Origin: Bacteroides sp. Marseille-P3684
GTDB lineage: Bacteria; Bacteroidota; Bacteroidia; Bacteroidales; Bacteroidaceae
Direction: 5' to 3'
DNA length: 64,000 nucleotides
Assembly (NCBI RefSeq): GCF_900291465.1
Contig: NZ_LT985808.1
Coordinates: forward strand, 137,953 to 201,952
Part shown: positions 12,519-50,100 of the stretch, piece by piece
Numbering within the stretch: position 1 is the first letter of the stretch
How the letters are laid out: each line of letters starts with the position of its first letter
Position numbers and translations under genes: made by a program
Notes under the pieces: generated by a model
Databases searched by the model: none
Told to the model about the DNA's origin: nothing
The model's input: only the letters and a program-made list of their open reading frames with translations

Positions 12519-15500
12519 TTAGAAGTTTAGCGATAAGCCGAGAGTCCATGTCGGCGGGATGCGGTAGCCGCGCGAGGGCGACAGTGTCCGTCCGCTCCAC
12601 ACCTCGGGGTCGAGGTGGCGCTTGTTGGCAGCCCAGTAGAAGAGGTTCTGCACCTGGAGGCTCACACGCAGGTTCTCGGCATAGAACTTGTTGACGAGCA
12701 CCTTAGGGAAGGTGTATGAGAGGGTCACGTCGCGGAGCTTGATGTAGTCGCCTTTCTGCACATGCTTGTCGGCAGCCGACCACAGATACTCCGAGTAGGT
12801 GTGGCTCGTGCCATAGAGGAATGCCGGAGCCATGTCGGGGTCCTTCTCGTCGCCCGGCTGTTGCCAGAACTTCAGCCTTCCGCGGTCCACCACGCCTGCA
12901 TAGTTCAGCACGGGGTAACGGTTCCACAGGTAACCGGCTGCCACGTCACGCAGGACATGTCCGCCATAGTAGACAAACATGAAGTCAAGGTCAAAGCCTT
13001 TATACGACAGGCGGTTCTGCAAGGCTGCCGAGTAGGGAGGGTCTGCCGTTCCGGCATACTTCAGGTCTTCCGGTTCCAGCTCGCTGTAGGACTTCACGAT
13101 GGTGCCGTCTGCCTTGTAGGCTGTCGGGTATCCCTCTTCGTCCAGTCCGGCATAACGGATGACCCACATGGCATTCATCGGCTTGCCTTCGCGGTTCTGC
13201 AGGCTGTAATAGTAGTCCATGGCCGAGGAGCCGCTCGCCTCCACACGGGTCAGCTTGTTCTTGTTGTAGCTGAAGGTGAAGTTGGTGGTCCAGGAGAAGT
13301 CGCGCCCGACGAAGTTCCTGCTTTCCAGGGTCAGTTCCACACCGCGGTTGTACATCTCGCCGTAGTTGAGCAGCAGCGACGGCCATCCGGTGGTGGGGTC
13401 GGTCTGCCGGTTGCCGAGCAGGTCGGAAGTCTTCTTGTTGTAGAACTCTAGCGTACCGTTCAACCGGTGTTTGAACAGGCTGAAGTCCACTGCCAGGTTG
13501 AACACCTTGGTCTTCTCCCAGCGCAGGTTCGGGTTGGGCGGTGTGCTGATGACGGCGTATGTCTCGTTGGTGTAGGAGTTCGGACGGCTGCTGACCGAAG
13601 CAATCATATAGGGACTGGTCACGGTGGTGGTGTTTCCGTTGATACCGTAAGTCGCACGCAGCGCCAGTCGGTCAATCACGTTCCAGTCCTCCAGTGCCAC
13701 ATACTGTGCACCTGCCGACCACAAGGGACGGTACTTGTACTTCGGGTCCATGCCGAAGAGGTTCGACTGGTCGATGCGGACGCTCGCCGTTCCTGTCAGC
13801 CGACGGTCAAAGGTGTAGGAGGCATTGGCATAGAAGGAGACGTAACGGCGGTCCACGTAAGAGAACGAGTCGCTCGCCGAGTCATAGTAATAGTAGTTGC
13901 CTGACACCGACTGCGTCCCATTGATGCCGTTTGCCGCCTCGATCTCGTCCATCAGCGTATAAGCCAGGGTCATGTCGTCATAGCCCACCTTGTTGAGCGA
14001 CGTCGCCTGCGTCACGACTTTCCGCCGTTCCGCACCGAGCAACGCCTGTACGCTGTGGCGTCCGTCGGTGAAGTCCTTGTTGAAGTTGAGCTGCATACGG
14101 AAGGTGTATGACTTCTTCTTCTGCCAATTCTCTGTCATCCGTCCGCCGACGGGGAAGTAGTGAGTGATGGCCCCGTTGTCCTCGATGACGGTGGCATCGT
14201 TGATTTCCGACTTCACATCGTAGTAGTCCTTCGAGTAATACTGCTTGTTATAGACGCTGGTGTTCTCCGTCTGGTAGAGCACGTCGAGGTCCAGTCCCTC
14301 CATGAACGTGAGCTTCATGCCGAGGTTGATGTTGTAGTACTTGGACTCATAGTTATAGTGCGCCTTGTCCATCTCGTTGACGGGGATGTAGGTCTCGTCC
14401 TGTAGACCCAGCTCGTTCAGGCGGTCCAGCTCATACTGGCTCTTGCCCATGTACCATTGCGCCGGGGTGCCGTCCTCGTTGTACAGCATGCGGTAGGAAG
14501 GACCGGAATAGAGGTTGCTGTACGCCGAGAAGCCGTTGTCATAGCTCCGGTCCACATTGCTGGTGAGCAGGCCGACGTTCACACGCATCCACTTGAAAAA
14601 GTCGAACTGGTTCTTCAGGTTGACGCCGATGCGCTGGGTCGACTGTTCCTTCTCGTAAGGCAGGTTCTCCTCGTAGTTGGCGGAGAAGGCATACTTGTAG
14701 ATGTCCGACCCTCCGCTGAAGGACAGGTTGTGCTGGTGGGTGATGTCCGCCTTGCGCAGCAGGCTCTTCAACTGACCATAGCGGTCGAGGCTGCGGTAAC
14801 GGTCCATCTCGGCATTGAAGTCCGCCTCGCTGATGACGCCCTGCTCCTTCTTATAGAGCAACGTATAGACCTCGTTGTACGAGCTGCGCTCCGTCAGGAT
14901 GTCGTTCACACTGTTGTGCTTGAGTCCGAAGAGAGTCTCCTGCAGGTCGACCAGCTCGGCACTCGACGTGAGATTCAGGTAGTCGCGGTCGGGCAACGGC
15001 TCGAACTTGATGCTTCCGTTGTAGCTGACACGGGTGCGTCCGTCTTGTCCCGAGCGAGTCGTGATGACGATGACGCCGTTTGCCGAACGGGCACCGTAGA
15101 TGGAGGCTGCGGTCGCATCCTTCAGGACGGTCACATTGACAATGTCTGATGGGTTGAGGGCTTCGATGTCGCCTTCAAAGGGAATGCCGTCGACCACATA
15201 AAGCGGAGTCTTCTCTCCCCTGAGGGTAGAGACACCACGGATCTGCGGCGTGCTGCCGGGTGTATGCTGCAAACCTGCCACCATACCTTCCATACGGTCC
15301 AGGATGTTGGTCTGCAGTTTCCCCTGCATGTCTTCGGGAGTAATGACAGAGAATGAACCGGCGGCACGCTCCTTGGAGATGGTCTGGTAACCGGTCACCA
15401 CCACTTCGCTCAGCTGGGTGTCGTCGGCATGCAGGGAGAGTTCCACGAAGGTACGTCCCGGTCTGACCGGTTCCTCGATGGTTTCATAGCCGATGAACGA

Positions 15501-15788
15501 CACCACCAGGATTTGCCCCGGAGCCACCTTCAACGAGAAGCGTCCGTCGATGTCGGTCACCGTTCCTATCTTATTGTTTCCTTTCACATAAACACTGGCC
15601 CCGGGCACCGGGTCACCATTTTCATCACGGACCACTCCACTGAGGGTCATCGTCTGCTGGGCCGCCTCCATGCCTGCCGCTACAGGCTCATGCAGAGACG
15701 CTTCACCCGGCATCGGCACTGTCAGTGCCAACATGGAGAAGAGCGCAAAAATCTTACCCCCCCCCACGGGTTTTCTAAAGCTGTTCAT
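12519..15788 (-). CDS. SusC-like TonB-dependent transporter, poly-G tract in frame (ON)
   Basis: The 1089-residue outer-membrane transporter contains, in order: a signal peptide (hydrophobic core IFALFSMLALTVPM), a carboxypeptidase-D-regulatory-like domain (VVRDENGDPVPGASVYVKG, about residues 50-130), a plug with the SusC motif LKDATAASIYGARSANGV, and the beta-barrel ending in LGLSLNF. It should import a SusD-bound ligand using TonB energy. The signal-peptide coding region contains nine G (15757-15765). They are read as GTG GGG GGG GGT AAG, which keeps the frame from ATG 15788. One extra G would read GGG TAA and stop at codon 12. The thioredoxin-like gene lies 38 bases upstream and SusD 12 bases downstream. 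Confidence 0.93.
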   Translation of the reverse strand: MNSFRKPVGGGKIFALFSMLALTVPMPGEASLHEPVAAGMEAAQQTMTLSGVVRDENGDPVPGASVYVKGNNKIGTVTDIDGRFSLKVAPGQILVVSFIGYETIEEPVRPGRTFVELSLHADDTQLSEVVVTGYQTISKERAAGSFSVITPEDMQGKLQTNILDRMEGMVAGLQHTPGSTPQIRGVSTLRGEKTPLYVVDGIPFEGDIEALNPSDIVNVTVLKDATAASIYGARSANGVIVITTRSGQDGRTRVSYNGSIKFEPLPDRDYLNLTSSAELVDLQETLFGLKHNSVNDILTERSSYNEVYTLLYKKEQGVISEADFNAEMDRYRSLDRYGQLKSLLRKADITHQHNLSFSGGSDIYKYAFSANYEENLPYEKEQSTQRIGVNLKNQFDFFKWMRVNVGLLTSNVDRSYDNGFSAYSNLYSGPSYRMLYNEDGTPAQWYMGKSQYELDRLNELGLQDETYIPVNEMDKAHYNYESKYYNINLGMKLTFMEGLDLDVLYQTENTSVYNKQYYSKDYYDVKSEINDATVIEDNGAITHYFPVGGRMTENWQKKKSYTFRMQLNFNKDFTDGRHSVQALLGAERRKVVTQATSLNKVGYDDMTLAYTLMDEIEAANGINGTQSVSGNYYYYDSASDSFSYVDRRYVSFYANASYTFDRRLTGTASVRIDQSNLFGMDPKYKYRPLWSAGAQYVALEDWNVIDRLALRATYGINGNTTTVTSPYMIASVSSRPNSYTNETYAVISTPPNPNLRWEKTKVFNLAVDFSLFKHRLNGTLEFYNKKTSDLLGNRQTDPTTGWPSLLLNYGEMYNRGVELTLESRNFVGRDFSWTTNFTFSYNKNKLTRVEASGSSAMDYYYSLQNREGKPMNAMWVIRYAGLDEEGYPTAYKADGTIVKSYSELEPEDLKYAGTADPPYSAALQNRLSYKGFDLDFMFVYYGGHVLRDVAAGYLWNRYPVLNYAGVVDRGRLKFWQQPGDEKDPDMAPAFLYGTSHTYSEYLWSAADKHVQKGDYIKLRDVTLSYTFPKVLVNKFYAENLRVSLQVQNLFYWAANKRHLDPEVWSGRTLSPSRGYRIPPTWTLGLSLNF
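15757..15765 (-). repeat. G9 homopolymer in the SusC signal-peptide region (ON)
   Basis: Nine consecutive G on the coding strand at codons 8-11, inside the core GTGGGGGGGGGTAA. This core is shared exactly with the second SusC gene near 44.9 kb. It is a candidate slipped-strand phase switch, here in the productive frame. Confidence 0.85.
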
Positions 15789-36586: not shown

Positions 36587-37696
36587 TCACTCATAAATTT
36601 CAGCCAACTTACGGCGAAGTGCATCTCCACGTAGTCCAAAAGCGACAATCTTTCCATCCGGACCTATCAAAAGGGTAGCAGGTATGGCACGTATATCATA
36701 CAATCGGGCGGCTTCGCTTTTCCAAGCCTTCAGGTCGGAAAGCTGCATCCAGACAATCTCCAGCTGCTCCACAGCCTTCATCCAGTCATCCTTGTTATTG
36801 TCCAAAGAGACACCGATTATCTCAAAGCCTTTCGGATGATATTCCTGATATAGCGTACTCATCTGCGGCATTTCAGCCCGACAGGGACCGCACCAACTGG
36901 CCCAAAAGTCAACAAGTACATAGTTCCCATGCCCGGCATAATCCGAAAGTTTATGAATCACGCCTTGTGAATCGGGTAAAGCAAAATCAGTAAAAGGAGC
37001 TCCCTCCGCTTTGCGCTTGGCTCCTTCCATTTTACGGCGGGTAGAAGCCAACAAGGGATTATCCTTATACGGATAGTCACGTAAGAATGACTCCAAAAAG
37101 TCCATACCCAACACATCATCATAGTTGAGAATAAAATAGGTAGGAATCAAATTGTCCCTATTATCCAAGATTCCCTGACGAAGGGCTTTCATCTGCCGTG
37201 TAGACGCTTCCTCCCATTCCTTATCCAAACGTCTGGCTACCGAATCAGGCAACTGCCCATTGTTTTCTTCAGTCTTTTGGACAGCCTCCTGCTGTATGCG
37301 GCGTTGCTCAACTCCTCCTTGATTGATGGCTGCAGTAATGGCCGCCATGCGTGCATTGATATCAGAGCCTTCCACTAGAACACCCCGATCAAGCGTCACC
37401 TTCACAGGCATGTCATCGAGAATAAAAGCCGCCACCACACTGTAACCGGTAGGAGTGCCACAAATAGAAGCCAATATGGGCAACTCAGCGCTTCCTTTAA
37501 ACGTATAAATACCATTCACACAAACAGCACTATCAATTGCCACCCTGTCAGCCAATGAAAACAGGTATACTTTCTCTAGATCAAAACCTGTATCCGATTG
37601 ATGGTTGACAAATGTCACCTCATAGGCAGACTGTGCCATCAATGGCAAGCAACAAATCAGGAAAGCTAGTATAATTATACAATTTCTCATATACAT
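36587..37696 (-). CDS. TlpA-like thioredoxin with N-terminal DUF4369-like domain
   Basis: The 369-residue exported protein has a signal peptide (LAFLICCLPLMAQ). The N-terminal beta-rich part (about residues 25-110) resembles the DUF4369-type domain common in Bacteroides TlpA proteins. A coiled/helical middle contains EQRRIQQEAV. The C-terminal thioredoxin domain contains FWASWCGPCRAEMPQ at about residue 262. These proteins reduce or exchange disulfides in the periplasm. It is the last gene of the SusC-SusD-DUF4843-PKD operon, six bases after the PKD-like gene. ATG 37696 or 37690 could be the start. Confidence 0.87.
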   Translation of the reverse strand: MYMRNCIIILAFLICCLPLMAQSAYEVTFVNHQSDTGFDLEKVYLFSLADRVAIDSAVCVNGIYTFKGSAELPILASICGTPTGYSVVAAFILDDMPVKVTLDRGVLVEGSDINARMAAITAAINQGGVEQRRIQQEAVQKTEENNGQLPDSVARRLDKEWEEASTRQMKALRQGILDNRDNLIPTYFILNYDDVLGMDFLESFLRDYPYKDNPLLASTRRKMEGAKRKAEGAPFTDFALPDSQGVIHKLSDYAGHGNYVLVDFWASWCGPCRAEMPQMSTLYQEYHPKGFEIIGVSLDNNKDDWMKAVEQLEIVWMQLSDLKAWKSEAARLYDIRAIPATLLIGPDGKIVAFGLRGDALRRKLAEIYE

Positions 37697-39451: not shown

Positions 39452-40201
39452 TTATACCGGGACGTCCAACAGAGATCCATCCTCATCGTAGGTAGGATTT
39501 TCTATGAGCCATTTCTTAAAGTCCAATGCCAGCTTACGCGCCCAGTCAGGAGAGTCCTCAATGATTTCCTTATTCAATTCTCTCGCACCCGGAACATTCT
39601 CCAGGAAGAGCTTATATTTCAAAGGTGAATAAGTGCCCAACAGGTAAGTTGAGACTTCAATGTTCCACCATTCGGGCCGAACCGGGTTCTTCGATACATA
39701 GATGATGGCCCGCGAACGTTCATACTGTCCAACTCCCAATGCTTCGGAAGGGACAATTTCAAGGACCAGACGGAACCCATCTTCCAGGCTCTGAAGATGT
39801 GAGGTACGATTGAGCTGAATCCGAATCGTGTCCTGCATCTGCAGAGCATCGTCCCGGACGGGCAATGCACGGAAGGTGTACTCATCCTGCAAAGTATAAT
39901 CTTCCGGGAGTGCTGTAGTCAATTCATCCACGACTCTCAAACGGAAGTGCGCGTCCCGTTCCAGTTTTCGTCCTGCCAGCACCACTACAAGCTCTGCATG
40001 TTGAGTGGTATTTGCAGCTTCATTAAAGTAGAATGTCACCTGAGTCGAATCCGACTTCTCATTACCTAGCATGGAATCATGCCAGAACTTCTCAAAATAG
40101 ACCATGTGTTCGTCACCAAACACCATTATATCTTGTTCCTCACAGGCCGTCATCAGCATTCCGCCAAGAACGGTCATCAAAAAGATTACTTTCTTTATCA
40201 T
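39452..40201 (-). CDS. DUF4843-like lipoprotein
   Basis: A 249-residue lipoprotein started at MIKKVIFLMTV (ATG 40201). A longer in-frame reading to 40285 lies inside the SusD gene and is rejected. The signal ends LMTACEEQD. The sequence VYFEKFWHDS near residue 35 and the beta-rich fold fit the DUF4843 family of small lipoproteins found in SusCD loci. Its role is unknown, but it may be an accessory surface component. It lies 19 bases after SusD and 69 bases before the PKD-like gene. Confidence 0.72.
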   Translation of the reverse strand: MIKKVIFLMTVLGGMLMTACEEQDIMVFGDEHMVYFEKFWHDSMLGNEKSDSTQVTFYFNEAANTTQHAELVVVLAGRKLERDAHFRLRVVDELTTALPEDYTLQDEYTFRALPVRDDALQMQDTIRIQLNRTSHLQSLEDGFRLVLEIVPSEALGVGQYERSRAIIYVSKNPVRPEWWNIEVSTYLLGTYSPLKYKLFLENVPGARELNKEIIEDSPDWARKLALDFKKWLIENPTYDEDGSLLDVPV

Positions 40202-40220
40202 AATCAGGCGAATTAAATGA

Positions 40221-41831
40221 TTACATCGTTTGATTGGCAGGGACAGGCAACATATATTCTGATTTGTTAAGCCTGCGTTCCCCATTAGCCGTCTTCACTT
40301 TAGCTCCCAGACGTTTATACAAATAGAAGAGTTGCCCTTCAGAGATCCATTCGCGTTGCGCATCGCGTGTCATATCTTGCAAGAAGCGCTCCAGGTTGTT
40401 AGACACATCCAAAGGCATATAGATTCCGCGACTGTTACGGATAGCGTTCAATATGTCATATGCCTCCATGAAATTGCCTTGGCGTGCATAGTGTTCCGCC
40501 ATGATATAGCGCATTTCAGTAGCTCTGATGACAGGCAATGTCTGTAGGTTCTTCGTGCGAATATCCTTGTCTTCACTACAATACCATTTTGTGGATATGC
40601 GATAGTCATCACCATAGTCAAATGCCGCATAATCAGGTTTGAACAACAAATACAGATACCGGTAATCCTGTTCCTTCTCATCAACACCTGCTCTGTTCTG
40701 GAATATCTCCTGCCCATTCACATCCACAGCCAGCCAACGGGCATTTCCACCTTGAGCCTCGGAACGCTTCTGAAAGAACGTACCCAAATCATAGTCGAGG
40801 TAGGAATCTTCGTTGTAAAGAGCAAATATCAGATTGGAGACAGTCTTCAAGTCCGTCCGTGCCTCATTGTTTTCTGCAGCAATCATCGTATACCAGTCAT
40901 CCTGTGTAAACATGTCGTAAACCATCCCGTTAGCTCCTTTAGCTTGAAAGGTCATCACCTCATCTGCACATTCGAATGCCAGAGCATCCTCACCCATGTA
41001 CTGATAGACACGCGCCAACAGGGCGGTGACGGCATAATAATTCAAACGATAGCCTCGCTCCAGAAAGAAGTCATCAAGCCCCGTACCATCCGGATGTCCT
41101 TCCATGCCATAATCCAATTGATTGTAGAAACGGGCATTGGCGGAAGAGTTGGCACTCATGCCGATGGCTGTCGTGTCAATACGTGCAGTCAGTTTTTGCG
41201 CTTCTCTGAGGTCATTGACCACTTTAGTCAAGAAAGTCCTGACATCAATGGCTTCCGGCTGGATATTAGGATACACATCCACATAGGGAAGATACTTCCC
41301 GCTTTCGTTTTCTATCGGTGCCGGCGCAAACAGACGGCACAAATCAAAATGCATCAACGCGCGACAGGCATAAGCCTCGCCCAGAATCATGTCACGTTCC
41401 AGTTCGCCCTCTGCAAACTTTTCAGGAGCTTCATCCCTCACGTTCTGGATGAGATTATTCGCATTGGCTATCACGTTGTAACCATCTTTCCAGATTGCAT
41501 CAATGAGCTCTCGCAAGCCTACATCATAATAGTTAAACGCCTTGGCAGCCTGATAAACCGTATTACCGGTTGTACCGTTAGCAGTCTGCCACGCCCACGT
41601 ATACTGCTGGGACATACAGTCCACAATGCCGAATTGCAACTCCCTCCCATACAGATTTGGAGAGGTCATCGCCTTATACACGCCACTCAACATCGTGCGG
41701 TACCCATCTCCCGTCTCAGTCAGTTTGTTATTGGTAGCTTGTCCATCCGGTTCTATGTCCAACCAACCCGAACAAGCCGTCACTACGCACAGCACCAATA
41801 ATAAATAAACGCTTGTATATACTTTTTTCAT
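40221..41831 (-). CDS. SusD/RagB-family outer-membrane lipoprotein
   Basis: The 536-residue lipoprotein has a signal ending CVVTACSGWLDIEPDGQ. The SusD N-domain includes LGEAYACRALMHFDLCRLFA. The C-terminal region contains RATEMRYIMAEHYARQG and REWISEGQLFYLYKRLG. It should bind the ligand of the adjacent SusC. It starts 13 bases after the SusC stop and depends on the same transcript, so SusC phase switching could affect it only through polarity. Confidence 0.93.
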   Translation of the reverse strand: MKKVYTSVYLLLVLCVVTACSGWLDIEPDGQATNNKLTETGDGYRTMLSGVYKAMTSPNLYGRELQFGIVDCMSQQYTWAWQTANGTTGNTVYQAAKAFNYYDVGLRELIDAIWKDGYNVIANANNLIQNVRDEAPEKFAEGELERDMILGEAYACRALMHFDLCRLFAPAPIENESGKYLPYVDVYPNIQPEAIDVRTFLTKVVNDLREAQKLTARIDTTAIGMSANSSANARFYNQLDYGMEGHPDGTGLDDFFLERGYRLNYYAVTALLARVYQYMGEDALAFECADEVMTFQAKGANGMVYDMFTQDDWYTMIAAENNEARTDLKTVSNLIFALYNEDSYLDYDLGTFFQKRSEAQGGNARWLAVDVNGQEIFQNRAGVDEKEQDYRYLYLLFKPDYAAFDYGDDYRISTKWYCSEDKDIRTKNLQTLPVIRATEMRYIMAEHYARQGNFMEAYDILNAIRNSRGIYMPLDVSNNLERFLQDMTRDAQREWISEGQLFYLYKRLGAKVKTANGERRLNKSEYMLPVPANQTM

Positions 41832-41844
41832 AACATTTCAAGAT

Positions 41845-44800
41845 TTAAAAGCCGAGGCTCAGAGTAAAACTATAATTCTTCGCATACGGATAACTCGTAC
41901 CCCTTTCCTCGCGGATGGTAGACCAACGAGCCAGGTCGTTGGCATTGAAACGAACCCCCAAGGAAGCAAGATGCAGCCGTTGCACAATCCGCTGATTGAA
42001 ATCATATCCCAGAGAAAGTCCACTGAAAGCGAGGTAATTGTTATCCTGCACAAAACGTGACGTAGGCTGTGTCTTCACCGTCGACTTCATGTCATAGTAG
42101 GGAGCCACATCCCCGGGATGTTGCCAACGCTGGGTCAACACACGCCGGTCTACATTACTGTTCTCAATATCGGCCTCTTCCACTTTTGACAGGAGTGTTT
42201 CATTATAGTCCTGCCCTCCCCATTGATAGAGAAAGGTCGTGTTCACATAGGCTCCCTTCCAGCCAATGTTGATACCAAATGAACCCTGCGCTTTCGGACT
42301 CTTGTCACCACACACCACTATGTCTCCCGAGTTCCAGGTATGCGTCACCGACCCATCGCGTTTACGGAACATCTCTTTACCCGTTGAAGGGTCGATGCCC
42401 AATGAAGGTACTGCGTAGATAGCCGTAGTGGATGCCCCGACGTAATACTGCGTCAGCGGCACATACTTCAGTTCAGCATACTCAGCATTGTCCGCATGTT
42501 CGCCTTTACCGGCATAGAAATCCTGTACCCTCTGGTTGTAGGCTGCCGCATCCTGTCCCAGCTCGGTAATGCGGTTTTTGTTGGCAGCCACCATCGCATT
42601 CAACGCCACCGTCCAGTCACGGTCCTGATAAGGCACCACGTTTATCTTCAATTCATAGCCCTTGTTCAATATCGTCCCTGCATTCGTATAGAATGTCTCG
42701 AAACCGGATGAAGTACGGATATTCAGCTGGGACAACTGGTCGGTAGTTTCCTTGCGGTAATAGTTCGCTTCGATGGACAAGTGACGTCTAAACAGTTCCA
42801 ACGCAATGCCAAAATCCCATGTTCCAGTCCTTTCCCATGTCAAGGCCGGATTACCCAACGCGATCAGCGTATTCGCCGGCGTGGAGGTGTACCAGTCATC
42901 CGACGTCTGATAAGTGGAGACTGCTGCATAGGACGGGAAACTGACATTACCCGTCACACCATAAGTAGCACGCACACGGAGAGTGTTGATGACCGGATTG
43001 TTACGAAGGAACTCATAGTTGTGGATATTCAGTCCCAAACCGGCTGACCAGAAAGGCGCAAAACGGTTGTCCTGCCCGAACTTGGACGAACCATCCATGC
43101 GAAATGAGAAATCGGCCAGATAAATATCGTCATAGGAATAATTCAATGCACCCAACAAGCCCACCAGACGGTCTTCATTCAAAGTCACCTGGGTTTTATT
43201 GGGCTGTTCAGCCGCGTAATTGGGCGAATGCAAATTGCTCAATTGGAATCCCCTGTATAAAACATTCGTATCAGTACCTTTGCTGGCCTGAGCATTCAGA
43301 CCTGCCGTTGCGTTGATAAAATGTTTCTTTATCGCCTTATTATAATAGAACAAGGCATTTACATTCCAATTATACGAGGTACTGCCCGCCGTTTGGAGTG
43401 TCCCCTTTTCTTTACTCGGAGCATTCAGGAAGGCGGGGTCCTTAGGATCAACATAAGATTCGGCATTGGAATCTGTACGGGTGACAGAAAACGAGCCTTT
43501 GAAAAAGAAGTCATCCGTGAAATACAGATTGACCATCAGGTTATCGGTCAGGTCATTCAAGGACGTACGCCCGGAGTAGCTGCCCAAATAGCGTACCTGA
43601 TAAAGCGGATTAGCTACATTGTTAGACGATATCAAAGTCTCCACCAGATTACCGTCATCATCATAAGGAGCATAGTAAGGTTTCAATATGGTATAACGCG
43701 AAAAGTCACCATAAGGCGAATTTTCAGACTTCGTCACCGTGTAGGTCACCTGATTCATGACCTGAAGCCACTTGTTGTAGCGATAGTCCAACGTAAGTCC
43801 CAATCCATACACATCCCTGAACGAGCCCTTCATGGCACCATTGTGCGTATTGTAGTTCAAGTCTACACTGTAACGAATGGATTCCACACCTCCCGAAAGG
43901 TTCATACTGTGAGTCTGGTTGAACACATTACGCACGGGTTGCGCCAGCCAGTCAGTCTGCACTCCGCGACGCACTTCATTCATCAGGTTATTATAGCGAA
44001 TATCCTGATCAATCTGCCCCGCCTTGTTTTCACCGGTGAAGTAACCGGCCAACCGTTCCACTTCCAGCATTTCTTCGGCATTACACAGGTTATAGTCTGA
44101 CAAATCCGGGAATTCCATTCCCCCTGTGAAATTATATGCCACACGAAGTTCACCCGGTTTGGGAGCAACCGTAGTCACCACAATGACGCCATTGGCTGCA
44201 CGTGAACCGTAAAGTGCAGTAGCTGCCGCATCCTTCAGGATGGTCATGTTCTCAATCCGGTTAATATCCATGTCATAGATCTTCTGGACACTCACCTCAA
44301 AACCATCCAAAATGAATATAGGCAAGTTGGGATTGTCTGCCAGATTCGTACGCTGTGAACGACGGGCAGATTCCACATCCAACCCCCGGTTCATGCCGAT
44401 GCTACTCTCACCCCGAATGGTAAACTCAGGAAGATTATTCGGGTCAGAGCCCCAGAGGTTGGACTCTTTCAGACGGAAAGAAGGCTCGAAAGCCTGCAGA
44501 GCCGCAATCGCATTCTTGTTGTTGGTTTTCAGCAATTCATCCTTGGTAACCACGGTGGCATTACCTGTGAAAGCATTTTTCTTCAATTGCTGATAGCCCG
44601 TCACCACGATTTCATCAATCTTCGAATTGTTTTTCAGTGTGACGGAGTAGGCATTCTTTTTGCCCAACATCAATTCAAACGACTCATAGCCCACATAAGA
44701 AATCACCAAGACCTTCACATCATCCGGCACACTGATGGTAAATTTACCATCTAGATCGGCTATTACTCCCTTGAAGTTCCGACCCTTTACCGTGACAGTC

Positions 44801-45022
44801 GCCCCAGGCAATGTTTCTCCGTCAGAGCCATAAACTACTCCGGTCACCACACGGTTCTGCTGCTGAGATACGCTTGTTACCGGAGCTTGACCAATAATCG
44901 CAGATGGGAATTTACCCCCCCCCACTAGGACTTGAAACAACCGTCTGTGTCACAAATAAATAACAGACACAGAGCAATGGAACGCGCATCGTTCCTTTCC
45001 ATTCATTGTCTTTTCTTCTCAT
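41845..45022 (-). CDS. SusC-like TonB-dependent transporter, poly-G tract out of frame (OFF)
   Basis: The 1030-codon body is a full SusC protein without a start: carboxypeptidase-D-like domain (GVVYGSDGETLPGATVTVKG), plug with LKDAAATALYGSRAANGV, barrel ending FTLSLGF. Its frame opens only after a TGA upstream and has no ATG. An ATG at 45022 (or 44989) in another frame encodes a proper signal peptide (MRVPLLCVCYLFVTQTVVSS) that runs into nine G (44915-44923) and then TAA, giving a 36-residue peptide. Eight or eleven G would join the two frames into a protein of about 1058 residues. I therefore read it as a phase-variable gene captured OFF rather than as a decayed gene, because the remaining 1030 codons are intact. 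Confidence 0.85.
44915..44923 (-). repeat. G9 homopolymer at the SusC signal-peptide junction (OFF)
   Basis: Nine G on the coding strand begin exactly at codon 34 of the frame from ATG 45022, followed by TAA. The surrounding core GTGGGGGGGGGTAA is identical to that in the other SusC gene at 15.76 kb. Confidence 0.88.
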
Positions 45023-45649
45023 GGTAATTCTGGAAGATTTAGGTTTAAACTACTGTTAACTATTTTCAAAATAATTCTGTCAATGTCTCTCTATACTTTA
45101 ACATCATTTATTCTGAATGGCTTTAAACATACGACTATTTTTGCAATAGAAACAAATAATAATTATTATTTTTTGTATCTATATTCATTTTTAACACTAC
45201 TAACCTATCTTTTTCCCACACAGTCCGAATAGTCCGCCGCCCATCACAGCCCTCATCCCCCACTCACAGCACCCCTACACCTTATTATATATACGCGCAC
45301 GCCATCCAGACAGAGAAACCACCTGCCTACGCTCGTCAGTGACCCATCACTTTGTCATTTTGTCAAAATGTCAAATGAATCACTCCACAGAGGCCTTCGT
45401 TGGAGCTAAAGACGGGGACGATGATCTTGCGGGCATTCTCGGACGATTTGCAAAATACATTTTCACACCAAATCCAATCGTTTCCTTTCCCTATGCCCTG
45501 CATGCAGAGCAATTGGTAGCACACAGAGTACTCACAGGAGAAAATACTCCACATTATAACAGTTCAAAAATGAACGATCCTGCCCTTCTTCCAGAGAGCA
45601 AACGTCCGTATTTTTTCATTGCGATTCCATTTTCTTTACATTGAGAGAG

Positions 45650-45753
45650 CAAACAATATTGTTTCACTCTTCAAACAATATTGTTTGACGAACCAAACAC
45701 AAGTGTTTGAGATGCGAAACAATATTGTTTGGGACGTCAAACACTTGTGTTAA
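45650..45753. repeat. Array 2 of five palindromic units at an exact 22-bp period
   Basis: Units of 16 bp start at 45650, 45672, 45694, 45716 and 45738 with 6-base spacers. Unit 2 is the perfect palindrome CAAACAATATTGTTTG. Units 1 and 4 differ by one end base. Unit 3 is CAAACACAAGTGTTTG and unit 5 is CAAACACTTGTGTTAA. The architecture is the same as array 1 near 10.7 kb, with which it shares the CAAAC/GTTTG arms. Confidence 0.85.
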
Positions 45754-46188
45754 CCGTTAACTTATCAAAATGCAATGGGCCCTACAGAAGGAAAGTGCAA
45801 ATGCAATTTAACTTTCCATCGCTAGTTCAGTCGATTTTTCAAAAATGTGCGTTAGCTGAAAATGGCTTTTCAGGAAAATGGGAAAGTAAATAAGGCTTTT
45901 GACCTCACAAAATGTCAATCCATCCTTTGGTTCTGCCGATGTGCGGAGACTGTTCTCACCCGAGATGTCTTCCGAGTTGCTCCCGCAAACAGCACCGGGA
46001 ACTTTTCTTCTCAAAACAGAAAAAGCTTATTGTATATTCTACGAACAGAAAACAGACCTCAGAAGGGTTTGAAATCCGTGAAAGTAGAAAGATAAAGAAA
46101 AGGAACAATTTTCACAAGAAACCGGACCTGATACAAGTGCATCTAACTGTCAATCCAACACAAAGCCTCAAAAATCTGCCCGTATTCC

Positions 46189-46219
46189 TTGGAGAAATGA
46201 AGTAAATCTCTTACTTTTA
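46189..46219 (+). promoter_or_regulatory. Possible promoter of the xylan (xus) operon
   Basis: TTGG at 46189-46192, 19 bases, then TACTTTTA at 46212-46219. This is one base from the TAnnTTTG consensus. It would give a leader of about 930 bases, so a closer unrecognised promoter is possible. Confidence 0.3.
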
Positions 46220-46238
46220 TAGTGTTAGCATAACACTA
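46220..46238 (+). promoter_or_regulatory. Perfect 8-bp inverted repeat at the candidate xus start site
   Basis: TAGTGTTA-GCA-TAACACTA directly follows the candidate -7 element. It could be an operator or the 5' end hairpin of the leader RNA. Confidence 0.35.
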
Positions 46239-47153
46239 ACAATAAAAATAATAGACCTAGTCCATGAAAGAACCGACCTCGTTGAAGGTTTACATCTGTC
46301 AACAAAAAGGATAATAACCTCCAGCAGTAGGAAGGTCCGCTTAATAAATATACTTATGAAGATGTGTGTTAGACATAACCTGTTGAAGTCCGTCCGTGAG
46401 AAAGGCAGGACAAGCCATGAAAACCGACAAAGGCCGACAAGCATTCCTTACAATAAGGGTGCGGAGCGTCCGGCTGTTGTCCCTGCTGCATGTACAGCAC
46501 ATAGCCTGGCAGGCATCTATTGGCATCTGGAAGGACATCAACCTCTCAATCAAACATTTACCCCTCCCCACGAGCATTTAGGCAACAATTACAATATCTC
46601 TCCGGCAGACAACGTTTCCGTTCGTCCGCCCCACCTGCTCTTTACCACTACCCACCTCACCGATGCAGCCGCTCTCCATCTGCTGCATCCATCTCGTTGC
46701 ACCTTCTCCACTGGCCCGGCAATGTCTCGAAATATGAACATCTGCGCGGCCGCCACGAAAATGCATGAGAATGGTAAAATAAAGAGTGCACGTCCGGCAT
46801 CCCTTCCGTCGGTAAAACCACAAAAGGGTCGCCTCGAAAGCCTGAGTCCTCCACCGTGTGCGCAACCGGACAGGCAACACATCGGGAGAGCCGCCGAGCA
46901 GGGAACGATTTATAATCCGATAACCATTTTAATCCTTTTTTCAGACACTACCGACTTACTCCCCGAGGGCAATCCATCTTGTCATTTTTACGCATGAGAC
47001 CGGAACGCCCCGTACACGTGAAAATAAACCATGCAAGTATTAACTAACGAATGTTGAACCATGAAACAGAAGGATGTGCTCGACAGCGGCTAGACAAACT
47101 CCCCAACCGCTGATGACTAGCAAACAATGTGAAAAAACAAACATCTTAAACTA

Positions 47154-50100
47154 ATGGAAATGAAAAATGTAGGAATACAAAAACGTTATCCTTGCCTGTT
47201 CCTGCTCCTGCTGTTCTGCTGCCTGGGAGCATTTGCCCAAAAGGGGCCGACGGTCAAAGGAATTATCTTCGACAGCAACGGGGAGACCATCATCGGCGCC
47301 TCGATTGTCGTGAAAGGCAATACATCAATCGGTACGATTTCCGACCTCGACGGCCAATTCTCGCTGAACGTGCCGTCATCAAACTCCGTTCTGGTGGTGT
47401 CCTTCGTGGGCATGAAATCAAAAGAGGTGAAGGCTACCCCCAACACCTTGATGCGCATCACCCTGGAAGATGACACCAAACAACTCGACGAAGTGGTCGT
47501 CGTGGGTTACGGCCAACAGAAAAAGGCTTCCGTGGTGGGGGCGATTACACAAACTACAGGAAAAGTGCTGGAACGTGCAGCAGGTGTGTCAGACATCGGA
47601 GCGGCCCTGACCGGTAACCTCCCTGGCGTGGTGACCATGACAGGCAGCGGTATGCCGGGAGATGAAGAACCGAAAATCACCATTCGCGGTGCCAGTTCCT
47701 GGAACGACAATGAAGCTCCGCTGATTCTGGTCGACGGCATCGAACGTCCGATGAGTTCAGTAGACATCAACTCCGTGCAATCCGTATCCGTCCTGAAAGA
47801 CGCATCTGCCACAGCTGTCTATGGTGTAAAAGGTGCCAACGGTGTCATCCTCATCACCACCAAACGCGGCGCGGAAGGTAGTGCAAAAATCGACATCGGT
47901 TTTAATGCAACACTGAAATCGCCGTCCAAACTGCCTAATAAATATGATTCGTATGATGCACTCATGCTCCGCAACACAGCCATCGAGCACGAACTGGCTC
48001 TCCGTCCTGACTCTTGGGAATATGTGCGTCCGCAATCATTCATCGACAACTACCGCAACCAGACAACTCTAGAGCAACGCGAACGCTACCCGAACGTCGA
48101 CTGGCAGAAGGCCCTGTTCAAGGACAACACCATGTCCTACCGTGCAAACATGAGCATCAGTGGCGGTACAAACTTTGTGAAATATTTTGCATCCGCCGAA
48201 TATGTGAACGAAGGAGACCTCTTCAAAATCTATGATAATGGACGAGGCTATAATTCCGGCTACGGATACAACCGACTTAACGTGCGCAGTAACCTGGATT
48301 TCAACTTGACCAAGACGACAGTCCTCAAGGTCAATCTTGCCGGTTCTAACGGCATCCGCAAGGCGCCCTGGCAAAACACCGGGCAATCGGAATGGCAAAT
48401 CGGCCAGCAGTGGTCGGGAGCCTATAACATTGCCCCCGATGTATTTCTCCCGCAATATTCCGATGGAAGTTGGGGTATGTACCCGCTGGTATCGAATACG
48501 ACGAACTCTGCCGAAAACATCTCACTGGGTGGTACCATGCGACTCACCACAACCCGCATCAACACGGATTTCACACTGGAGCAGGACCTGAAATTCATCA
48601 CTCCGGGTCTATCAGCCCGTGCCACCATCTCCTGGGACAATGAGTTTGTAGAAAACAACCGCGGTATCAACGACCTCTATAACGACGCACAACGCAAATG
48701 GATCGATCCGGACACCGGTCAGGCACGCTACGAACAATCTTACGACACCAACAATGGCTTTGACTGGCATCAGGGCGTCAACTGGAGCACGGCTCCGGGT
48801 GAGGTGGACAACGGACAGACCGTCCGCAACCTCTATTACCAGGCACAGTTGAACTGGGTACGCAGCTTTGGCAAACACAACCTGACTGCCATGGGACTCT
48901 TCAGCCGTCAAGAGAATGCACGGGGAAGCGTGATGCCTGCCTATCGTGAAGACTGGGCATTCCGTACGACCTACAACTGGGCAGACCGCTACTTCGTGGA
49001 ATACAACGGTGCCTACAACGGTTCCGAGAAGTTCAGCCCGAAAAATCGTTTTGCCTTCTTCAACTCCGGCGCACTGGGATGGATGGTCAGCGAAGAGAGC
49101 TTCATGAACTACCTGCGCGAAAAGCACATCCTCGACATGCTGAAGATTCGTGTATCCTACGGCGAGATTGGTTCTGACCAGTTGGGTATCGACCCCTTCG
49201 ACTCCAACCGCCGTTGGCTGTACATGAGCCAATGGACTTACGGAGGGCAGACAACCATGGACCTCAACCATTCAACCCCGGGAAGTATCTATACCTGGTA
49301 CAGGGAGGCCACCATCAGCAACGAGGACATCCATTGGGAAGTAGTACGCAAGCTGAACGTCGGCATTGACTATTCGTTCCTGGACGGTCTGCTTGCTGGT
49401 AACCTGGAATTCTTCCGGGACATCCGCTCCAACATATTCGTCTTCGGTACGGACCGTTCCATCCCCTCCTATTTCGGAGGAACTCCCCCGACTGTCAACA
49501 AAGGAAAAATCCGCACCAGCGGTTACGAACTGGAGGTACGCCTCAACAAGACTTATGCCAATGGTCTCCATCTATGGGGCAATTTCAGCATGACACATGC
49601 TAAAAACACCGTATTGGTGAAAGATGACCAGGCACTGCGTCCTGCCTACCAGAAGGCTGCTGGACATGGTGTGGGACAATATAACTCTTACATCGACGAC
49701 GGCTTCATCCAGACCTACGACCAGCTGTATGCTGCTCCGGCCCACGATGCCAACGACAGCCAACGCCTCGTGGGAGACCACTATATCGTAGACTTCAACG
49801 GTGACGGTGTAGTGGATAACAAAGACTCTGCTCCCTATGGTTATACCAACCAACCGGAAAATACTTACAACGCAACCATCGGCTTCGAATGGAAAGGCTT
49901 CAGTGCTTTTGCCCAGTTCTATGGAGTAACGAATGTGACCCGCGACGTGACCCTGACCAGCTTCGGCAGCAAGCTGAATACGGTATATGACAACGGCACC
50001 TGGTGGTCCAAGGATACCCCAAATGCTGATGTGGTCGTTCCGCGCTGGAATTCTACACCCAATTACAACGAAGGTACTCAATTCCTGTATGACGGTTCAT

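Follow-up and report, generated by a model that had tools for sequence, protein, structure and literature searches.

The window analysed here, a stretch of 64,000 nucleotides from Bacteroides sp. Marseille-P3684, carries a gene for a SusC/RagA TonB-linked outer membrane protein on its minus strand (41845..44940). Its frame is open without a stop from a TTG at 44940 to 41845, corresponding to 1031 codons. Residues 31-1031 match TIGR04056 with 639 bits against a cut-off of 368, PF07715 is matched as well, and CarboxypepD_reg-like and plug domains are present. The SusD-like partner (PF14322) lies alongside at 40221..41831. It is followed on the same strand by genes for a DUF4843 protein (39452..40285), a PKD-like family protein (PF16407; 37703..39382) and a thioredoxin-like protein (AhpC-TSA; 36587..37696), all presumed to belong to the same operon. 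SusC/SusD pairs decide which nutrients are taken up by gut Bacteroidales, and TonB-linked surface proteins are common phage receptors.

The start of this gene was found in another frame. An ATG at 45022 opens 33 codons for a predicted signal peptide with a basic N-terminus and a hydrophobic core (44924..45022, minus strand; MRRKDNEWKGTMRVPLLCVCYLFVTQTVVSSPS), which are followed by GGG GGG GGG TAA. The G9 tract, the proposed slippage site, occupies 44915..44923 and the TAA stop 44912..44914, both on the minus strand. The initial annotation had described this signal-peptide frame meeting nine Gs at a codon boundary and then TAA, and its coordinates hold. It had also placed an intact SusC in a separate frame without an ATG. 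The 1031 open codons and the TIGR04056 match bear out the intact gene; the lack of an ATG applies only before codon 91, where the first in-frame ATG lies. The earliest possible initiation codon of the SusC frame is TTG 44940, 17 nt 5' of the tract, and a GTG overlaps the first G of the tract, but none of these three codons supplies a signal peptide. Arithmetic on the sequence gives a single continuous frame with one G less or two G more, in agreement with the earlier statement that G8 or G11 would fuse both parts, so that a change in tract length by one unit moves the gene between a full-length frame and an early stop.

In the assembled G9 state the SusC frame has no signal peptide of its own, whereas three orthologues have one in the same frame. 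Two Paraprevotella MAGs (L052 and L053) have a signal peptide of this kind (MREDKK...FASCLLAAQ...ASP) continuous with SusC and lack a long G run there. In a Phocaeicola MAG (G012, locus L063, 88% identical) it is joined to SusC through G9 and the gene is ON, the tract being followed by AATT rather than by TAAATT as in the window. In a second Phocaeicola MAG (G011, locus L055, 80%) the run is G7 with TAG behind it, and the gene is out of frame (OFF). The orthologue of P. coprophilus (L051, 83%) has a different N-terminus, seemingly including an STN domain, and lacks a G tract. These states were called by eye, and the genus label Phocaeicola was taken from named relatives of the window's genome. 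The comparison of the window SusC with that of G012 gave a dN/dS of 0.041 without an internal stop, a pairwise value in which the most recent branch is not separated out and dS is 1.7, near saturation. Because three relatives have the signal peptide and SusC in one continuous frame, the two parts are best read as one gene rather than two. The window SusC is thus a gene under constraint whose two parts fall out of frame at a G run that three species have retained. The count of G runs in related genomes, which the initial annotation had proposed as a check, gave different lengths and states at the same locus (G9 OFF, G9 ON and G7 OFF), but these differences are between species.

A second G9 tract of the window, also followed by TAA, lies at 15757..15765 on the minus strand. 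It begins in codon 8 of another SusC/RagA gene (12519..15788, minus strand; TIGR04056, 613 bits), which is in frame (ON).

Long G tracts in the genome and its relatives

Dinucleotide shuffling of the window alone gave a mean of 1.29 G8 matches, and 5 of 100 shuffles reached the observed 4 overlapping matches. By this measure alone the G9 run of the window is unremarkable. The statistics of G runs in the whole genome, in contrast, placed it beyond chance. The genome (3.71 Mb, 3 contigs) contains 20 overlapping G9 matches, which resolve into 16 tracts (12 G9, 4 G10), against only two runs of exactly eight G. In 400 kb of the same genome, taken as 20 spread stretches and counted on both strands, runs of 2, 3, 4, 5 and 6 G occurred 33590, 6499, 1517, 278 and 20 times, and runs of at least 7 G were absent. 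Since runs of 7 or more are absent from this sample and G8 occurs twice against 16 runs of 9-10, the long tracts form a population separate from the ordinary runs, with bimodal lengths.

Seven of the 16 tracts lie at SusC starts (153709, 182867, 1095497, 1102132, 1399796, 1767693 and 3351902; 182867 is that of the window gene), for which the binomial probability is about 3e-13 when the first 200 bp of 79 SusC-like candidate places are taken as the target. All seven are at most 124 nt from the ATG and within the first 42 codons. Two of these genes are OFF, namely the window gene and that at 1102132, and five are ON. Beyond the window, gene labels other than SusC were judged from translations and not from family searches. 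On this basis, hybrid two-component regulators carry tracts in frame at 1016499 and out of frame at 2976378. Tracts were also found upstream of an ECF sigma-like gene (1397569), of SusC genes (491702, 1863798 and 3619826, the last at about 1.4 kb) and of a gene for a small protein resembling an outer-membrane barrel (3338024). One adjoins a nucleotidyltransferase-like ORF (1838319), and another, a G9 at 1635253, is part of a leader ORF that precedes a SusC with a TAG inside its frame. In the latter SusC (L193, to about 1636000) the in-frame TAG stands directly before VVVTG. The SusC paralogue at 1102132, also OFF at G9, is interrupted by an ORF at 1103563-1105098 (L191) that is transposase-like by its translation, and appears to be an OFF copy heading to decay.

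Tract states were further determined in six genomes, the window's own (G000) and five relatives (G001, G011-G014). Among 30 tract-bearing SusC-type genes, 17 were ON, 11 OFF and 2 uncallable. The set consists of sampled loci with a CarboxypepD-like motif and does not comprise every tract of the six genomes; the window gene, the own gene at 1767693 and the orthologues in G012 and G011 did not match the motif and are not included. States were called by comparing the SusC frame with the upstream frame that has the most hydrophobic ATG-started peptide, a heuristic that is weak for L156, L164 and L170. Several tracts of different species occupy homologous places in DNA that is 65-79% identical, their lengths pairing as 9/10, 9/8 and 9/9, and the length differences compared were in every case between species or paralogues.

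Other genes carrying tracts in the relatives, as judged from translations, encode FecR-type anti-sigma factors (L120 and L171), an AraC-type regulator (L116) and a fimbrillin-like lipoprotein (L217). A row of four successive CMP-sugar cytidylyltransferase-like ORFs was present on contig C39 of G013 (L143/L144), again from translation, and the first three contain G9TAA. The first ORF is split between frames, and the other two tracts lie near the ORF ends. Surface-glycan genes are among the typical targets of poly-G tracts. Loss of mismatch repair, giving a hypermutator, was considered as a cause of the long tracts and is unsupported as far as mutS is concerned, mutS1 being above the cut-off in 15/15 genomes of the genus. 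Insertion of a cassette of fixed length was likewise unsupported by the one pair compared, a regulator and its homologue (39% identity), which have equal numbers of residues across the tract site.

Flanking sequence and orientation of the tracts

TAA follows ordinary runs of 2-4 G in 1.2-1.7% of cases and runs of 5 G in 1 of 278. After the long tracts it was found in 10 of 16 cases in the own genome and in 65 of 113 in five relatives, a sample drawn blind to TAA but with non-G letters required at two fixed outer positions. In the same 113 tracts the letter after the run was never C, which follows 2 of the 16 own tracts; A occupies positions -10 to -7 in 48-58%, and positions +4 and +5 in 60% and 50%. 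Most tracts thus share a common DNA signature of an A-rich stretch, T, G9-10 and TAA. TAA follows sense, antisense and intergenic tracts, in a set that was partly fetched by TAA. Because it is found in all three positions, neither codons nor OFF-frame stops can by themselves account for the flank, and selection for a stop codon was set aside as an insufficient cause.

TG9TAA occurred 7, 15, 13, 8, 3 and 2 times in G000, G012, G013, G014, G001 and G011, and the reversed pattern 0, 2, 2, 1, 0 and 1 times in the same order. Among the 15 genomes of the genus, HG10TAA has 27 occurrences spread over nine, and TG8TAA has 14, also over nine, with none in G000, G013 or G014. In a sample of the family, six genomes of the window's genus had 36 TG9TAA against 5 reversed patterns, and 145 other genomes had 48 against 29, with at most 3 in any one. 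In a sample of the order, 246 other genomes had 37 against 24, of which 14/37 and 8/24 were in family f22. TG9TAA is therefore strongly enriched in the window's genus, with a mild excess outside it. A phage-borne or generally preferred motif was rejected, as TG9TAAAA was present in 61 IMG/VR stretches and its reversal in 83. The f22 matches come from three genomes (G180, G283 and G364) with 14 TG9TAA but 8 reversed controls, and these possibly have an independent poly-G repertoire without a flank preference.

The replication arms of the own genome were taken from GC skew alone. Over spread stretches the skew was negative at 0.02-0.42 Mb, of unclear sign at 0.58-0.86, positive at 1.06-2.18 and negative at 2.34-3.58 Mb, a pattern as for two arms. 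The G strand of the own TAA tracts was on the leading-strand side in 10 of 10 cases, five of them with the adjacent gene and five against it. The six tracts without TAA were oriented with the leading strand in 2 cases and against it in 4 (one-sided Fisher test by hand, about 0.008). In relatives, two TAA tracts on one contig always pointed the same way (48 of 48 pairs on 11 contigs), which none of 10000 shuffles matched, and with TAG and TGA tracts added 54 pairs were concordant and 4 discordant. Tracts followed by A on contigs with TAA tracts showed no such lock (7 with, 4 against). The G strand agreed with the sign of the pooled GC skew in all eight contigs tested. Full concordance of the 11 contigs has a probability of about 5e-7 at a leading-strand fraction of 0.615 (that of n=5 runs), or 5e-5 without the clustered contigs C9 and C39. 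All these values have to be read with skew confounded by gene direction and with tracts on one contig not fully independent. The skew sign departed from that of the arm in several short SusC stretches, e.g. L082, L089 and L091, and was opposite in one of three stretches (L232) of contig C2 of G013.

The TAA tracts are thus oriented with replication, the arms being defined by skew, but ordinary G runs are also leading-strand-biased. This bias increases with length, from 61% at n=5 to 9/10 at n=6; short runs followed by TAA have little of it (215 to 182 at n=2 and 42 to 33 at n=3). It is conceivable, though rather unlikely, that the tracts represent copies of a single DNA element coupled to replication (roughly A-rich at -10 to -7, T, G9-10, TAAAAT), with its G strand on the leading side regardless of gene direction. 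A clade-specific factor at the fork would then either generate the tracts or determine how they slip and how long they are (9-10, rarely 8), which would amount to a dedicated switch generator and not passive slippage. Speculatively, flank and orientation may tune or create tracts, and an A/T-rich duplex beside the run might help strand realignment on one side of the fork. In a C. jejuni study the flank did not influence slippage in PCR products, according to the accessible part of that paper (PMC4965091). The common, replication-oriented flank raises the question whether slippage in vivo is tuned by the neighbouring sequence and by the direction of the fork.

At five intergenic tracts (L003, L119, L127, L154 and L157) roughly AAA-N-GTA-N-GTTAAAA was seen directly 5' of the G run, in L154 as GAAGGTACG. 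The opposite strand reads TTTTAAC-N-TAC-N-TTT adjoining a C run, which we take to resemble the Bacteroides -7 box.

Phase variation and alternative explanations

Poly-G contingency loci are known to switch by slipped-strand mispairing. The tracts described here very probably constitute a slipped-strand phase-variation repertoire of a Phocaeicola clade, in which the window SusC was caught OFF, and the G-run set of the own genome probably turns surface genes on and off. Mispairing of slipped strands would add a G to the G9 run or remove one as the DNA is replicated. With nine Gs, a ribosome that starts at ATG 45022 would stop at TAA after 36 codons and no SusC would be exported. One G shorter or two longer, the signal peptide would be fused to the intact SusC and the gene would be ON; two of three tract lengths would leave SusC without a signal peptide. 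The tracts of this repertoire, mostly G9-G10, lie in genes for SusC, for hybrid two-component regulators and for anti-sigma factors, in glycan genes and also in some regions upstream of genes. Reversible length change within a strain, and the switching of SusC protein that would result from it, we infer from the differences in length and state among orthologues and paralogues.

Homopolymers are the commonest place of length errors in sequencing and assembly, and the window gene was read from a single assembly. If the Gs had been miscounted, the true length would be ON, the gene intact and the switch absent. This is improbable, as it fails to explain 16 long tracts with almost no runs of 7-8 or the concentration of tracts at SusC starts, and OFF states were found in the assemblies G011, G012, G013 and G014 as well, the first two of which come from one MAG project. 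Still less probable is a fixed frameshift that has made the gene a recent pseudogene not yet decayed. The window gene is OFF, the transposase-broken OFF paralogue at 1102132 suggests that some OFF copies do decay, and the SusC behind the tract at 1635253 has its internal TAG. Against this stand the 1031 open codons and the pairwise dN/dS of 0.041, with the most recent branch not isolated, and G012 and G011 retain a G run at this position. The conserved long frame had already been taken in the initial annotation to argue against simple decay, and the low dN/dS and intact frame agree with this. Long homopolymers can slip at the level of RNA or the ribosome, and the two frames might be bridged without a change of the DNA if the ribosome shifted frame, or the transcript slipped, at the Gs, the gene being always partly on. 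The plain in-frame versions in relatives, with or without a tract, speak against this, the least probable of the alternatives, and it would be meaningless for the intergenic tracts. Because relatives have the gene in frame, the SusC frame is constrained and sister tracts occur both ON and OFF, decay or a stray indel explains the locus poorly, and the same observations favour the slipped-strand switch that the initial annotation had proposed.

A poly-G repertoire of this kind, if true, would be a second switch independent of DNA inversion and readable in metagenomes as tract length. Automatic annotation may then label switched-off transporters as pseudogenes.

Comparison with known switching systems

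The mechanism is of a known kind; new are the host group, the targets, the flank and the orientation. The haemoglobin receptors HmbR and HpuAB of Neisseria are also TonB-dependent. Their genes, hmbR/hpuAB, are phase-variable poly-G/poly-C loci (PMC3786947), and 29 such loci are given for Campylobacter jejuni NCTC11168 (PMC4965091), each in the accessible part of the paper. Common to these loci and the tracts described here are a G/C homopolymer of about 8-12, ON/OFF switching by frame, surface genes as targets and several loci per genome. They differ in that the targets here are SusC genes of Bacteroidales and regulators, and in the recurrent TAA flank and fixed replication orientation, which are not described in the accessible text of either paper.

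Phase variation of SusC/SusD and capsule by DNA inversion is known from Bacteroides fragilis, as stated in the main text of a 2025 review of Bacteroidales (PMC12632263), which cites a 2009 J Bacteriol paper on a SusC/SusD invertase. The target class (SusC/SusD) and the ecological idea of a mixed population are the same, whereas the switch there consists of a site-specific recombinase and inverted repeats and here of a homopolymer. The main text of that review names DNA inversion and contains neither 'slipped' nor 'homopolymer'. The accessible part of a 2025 phase-variation review (PMC11868660) names invertase-mediated switching for Bacteroides, and the main text of an article on phage and Bacteroidales (PMC12118408) contains none of 'homopolym', 'frameshift', 'slipped' and 'slippage'. 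An Ornithobacterium paper (PMC13183296) was discarded as a source on SusC, the text matches seen in it being to the word susceptibility. Titles and beginnings of abstracts, mostly from outside subscription journals, yielded nothing on poly-G phase variation of SusC or in Bacteroidales, or on a replication-oriented flank.

Within 44500-47200 of the window, a pair of inverted repeats of at least 14 nt bracketing the SusC promoter region was not found, and phase variation by an inverton was rejected for this interval. Scanning for promoters predicted 3 sites within 44900-45450, not a telling number beside the 1.5 of shuffled sequence. At 45650-45751, in the region separating the two divergent SusC operons, near-palindromes (CAAACAATATTGTTTG / CAAACACAAGTGTTTG) form a cluster that is perhaps a regulator site or a terminator.
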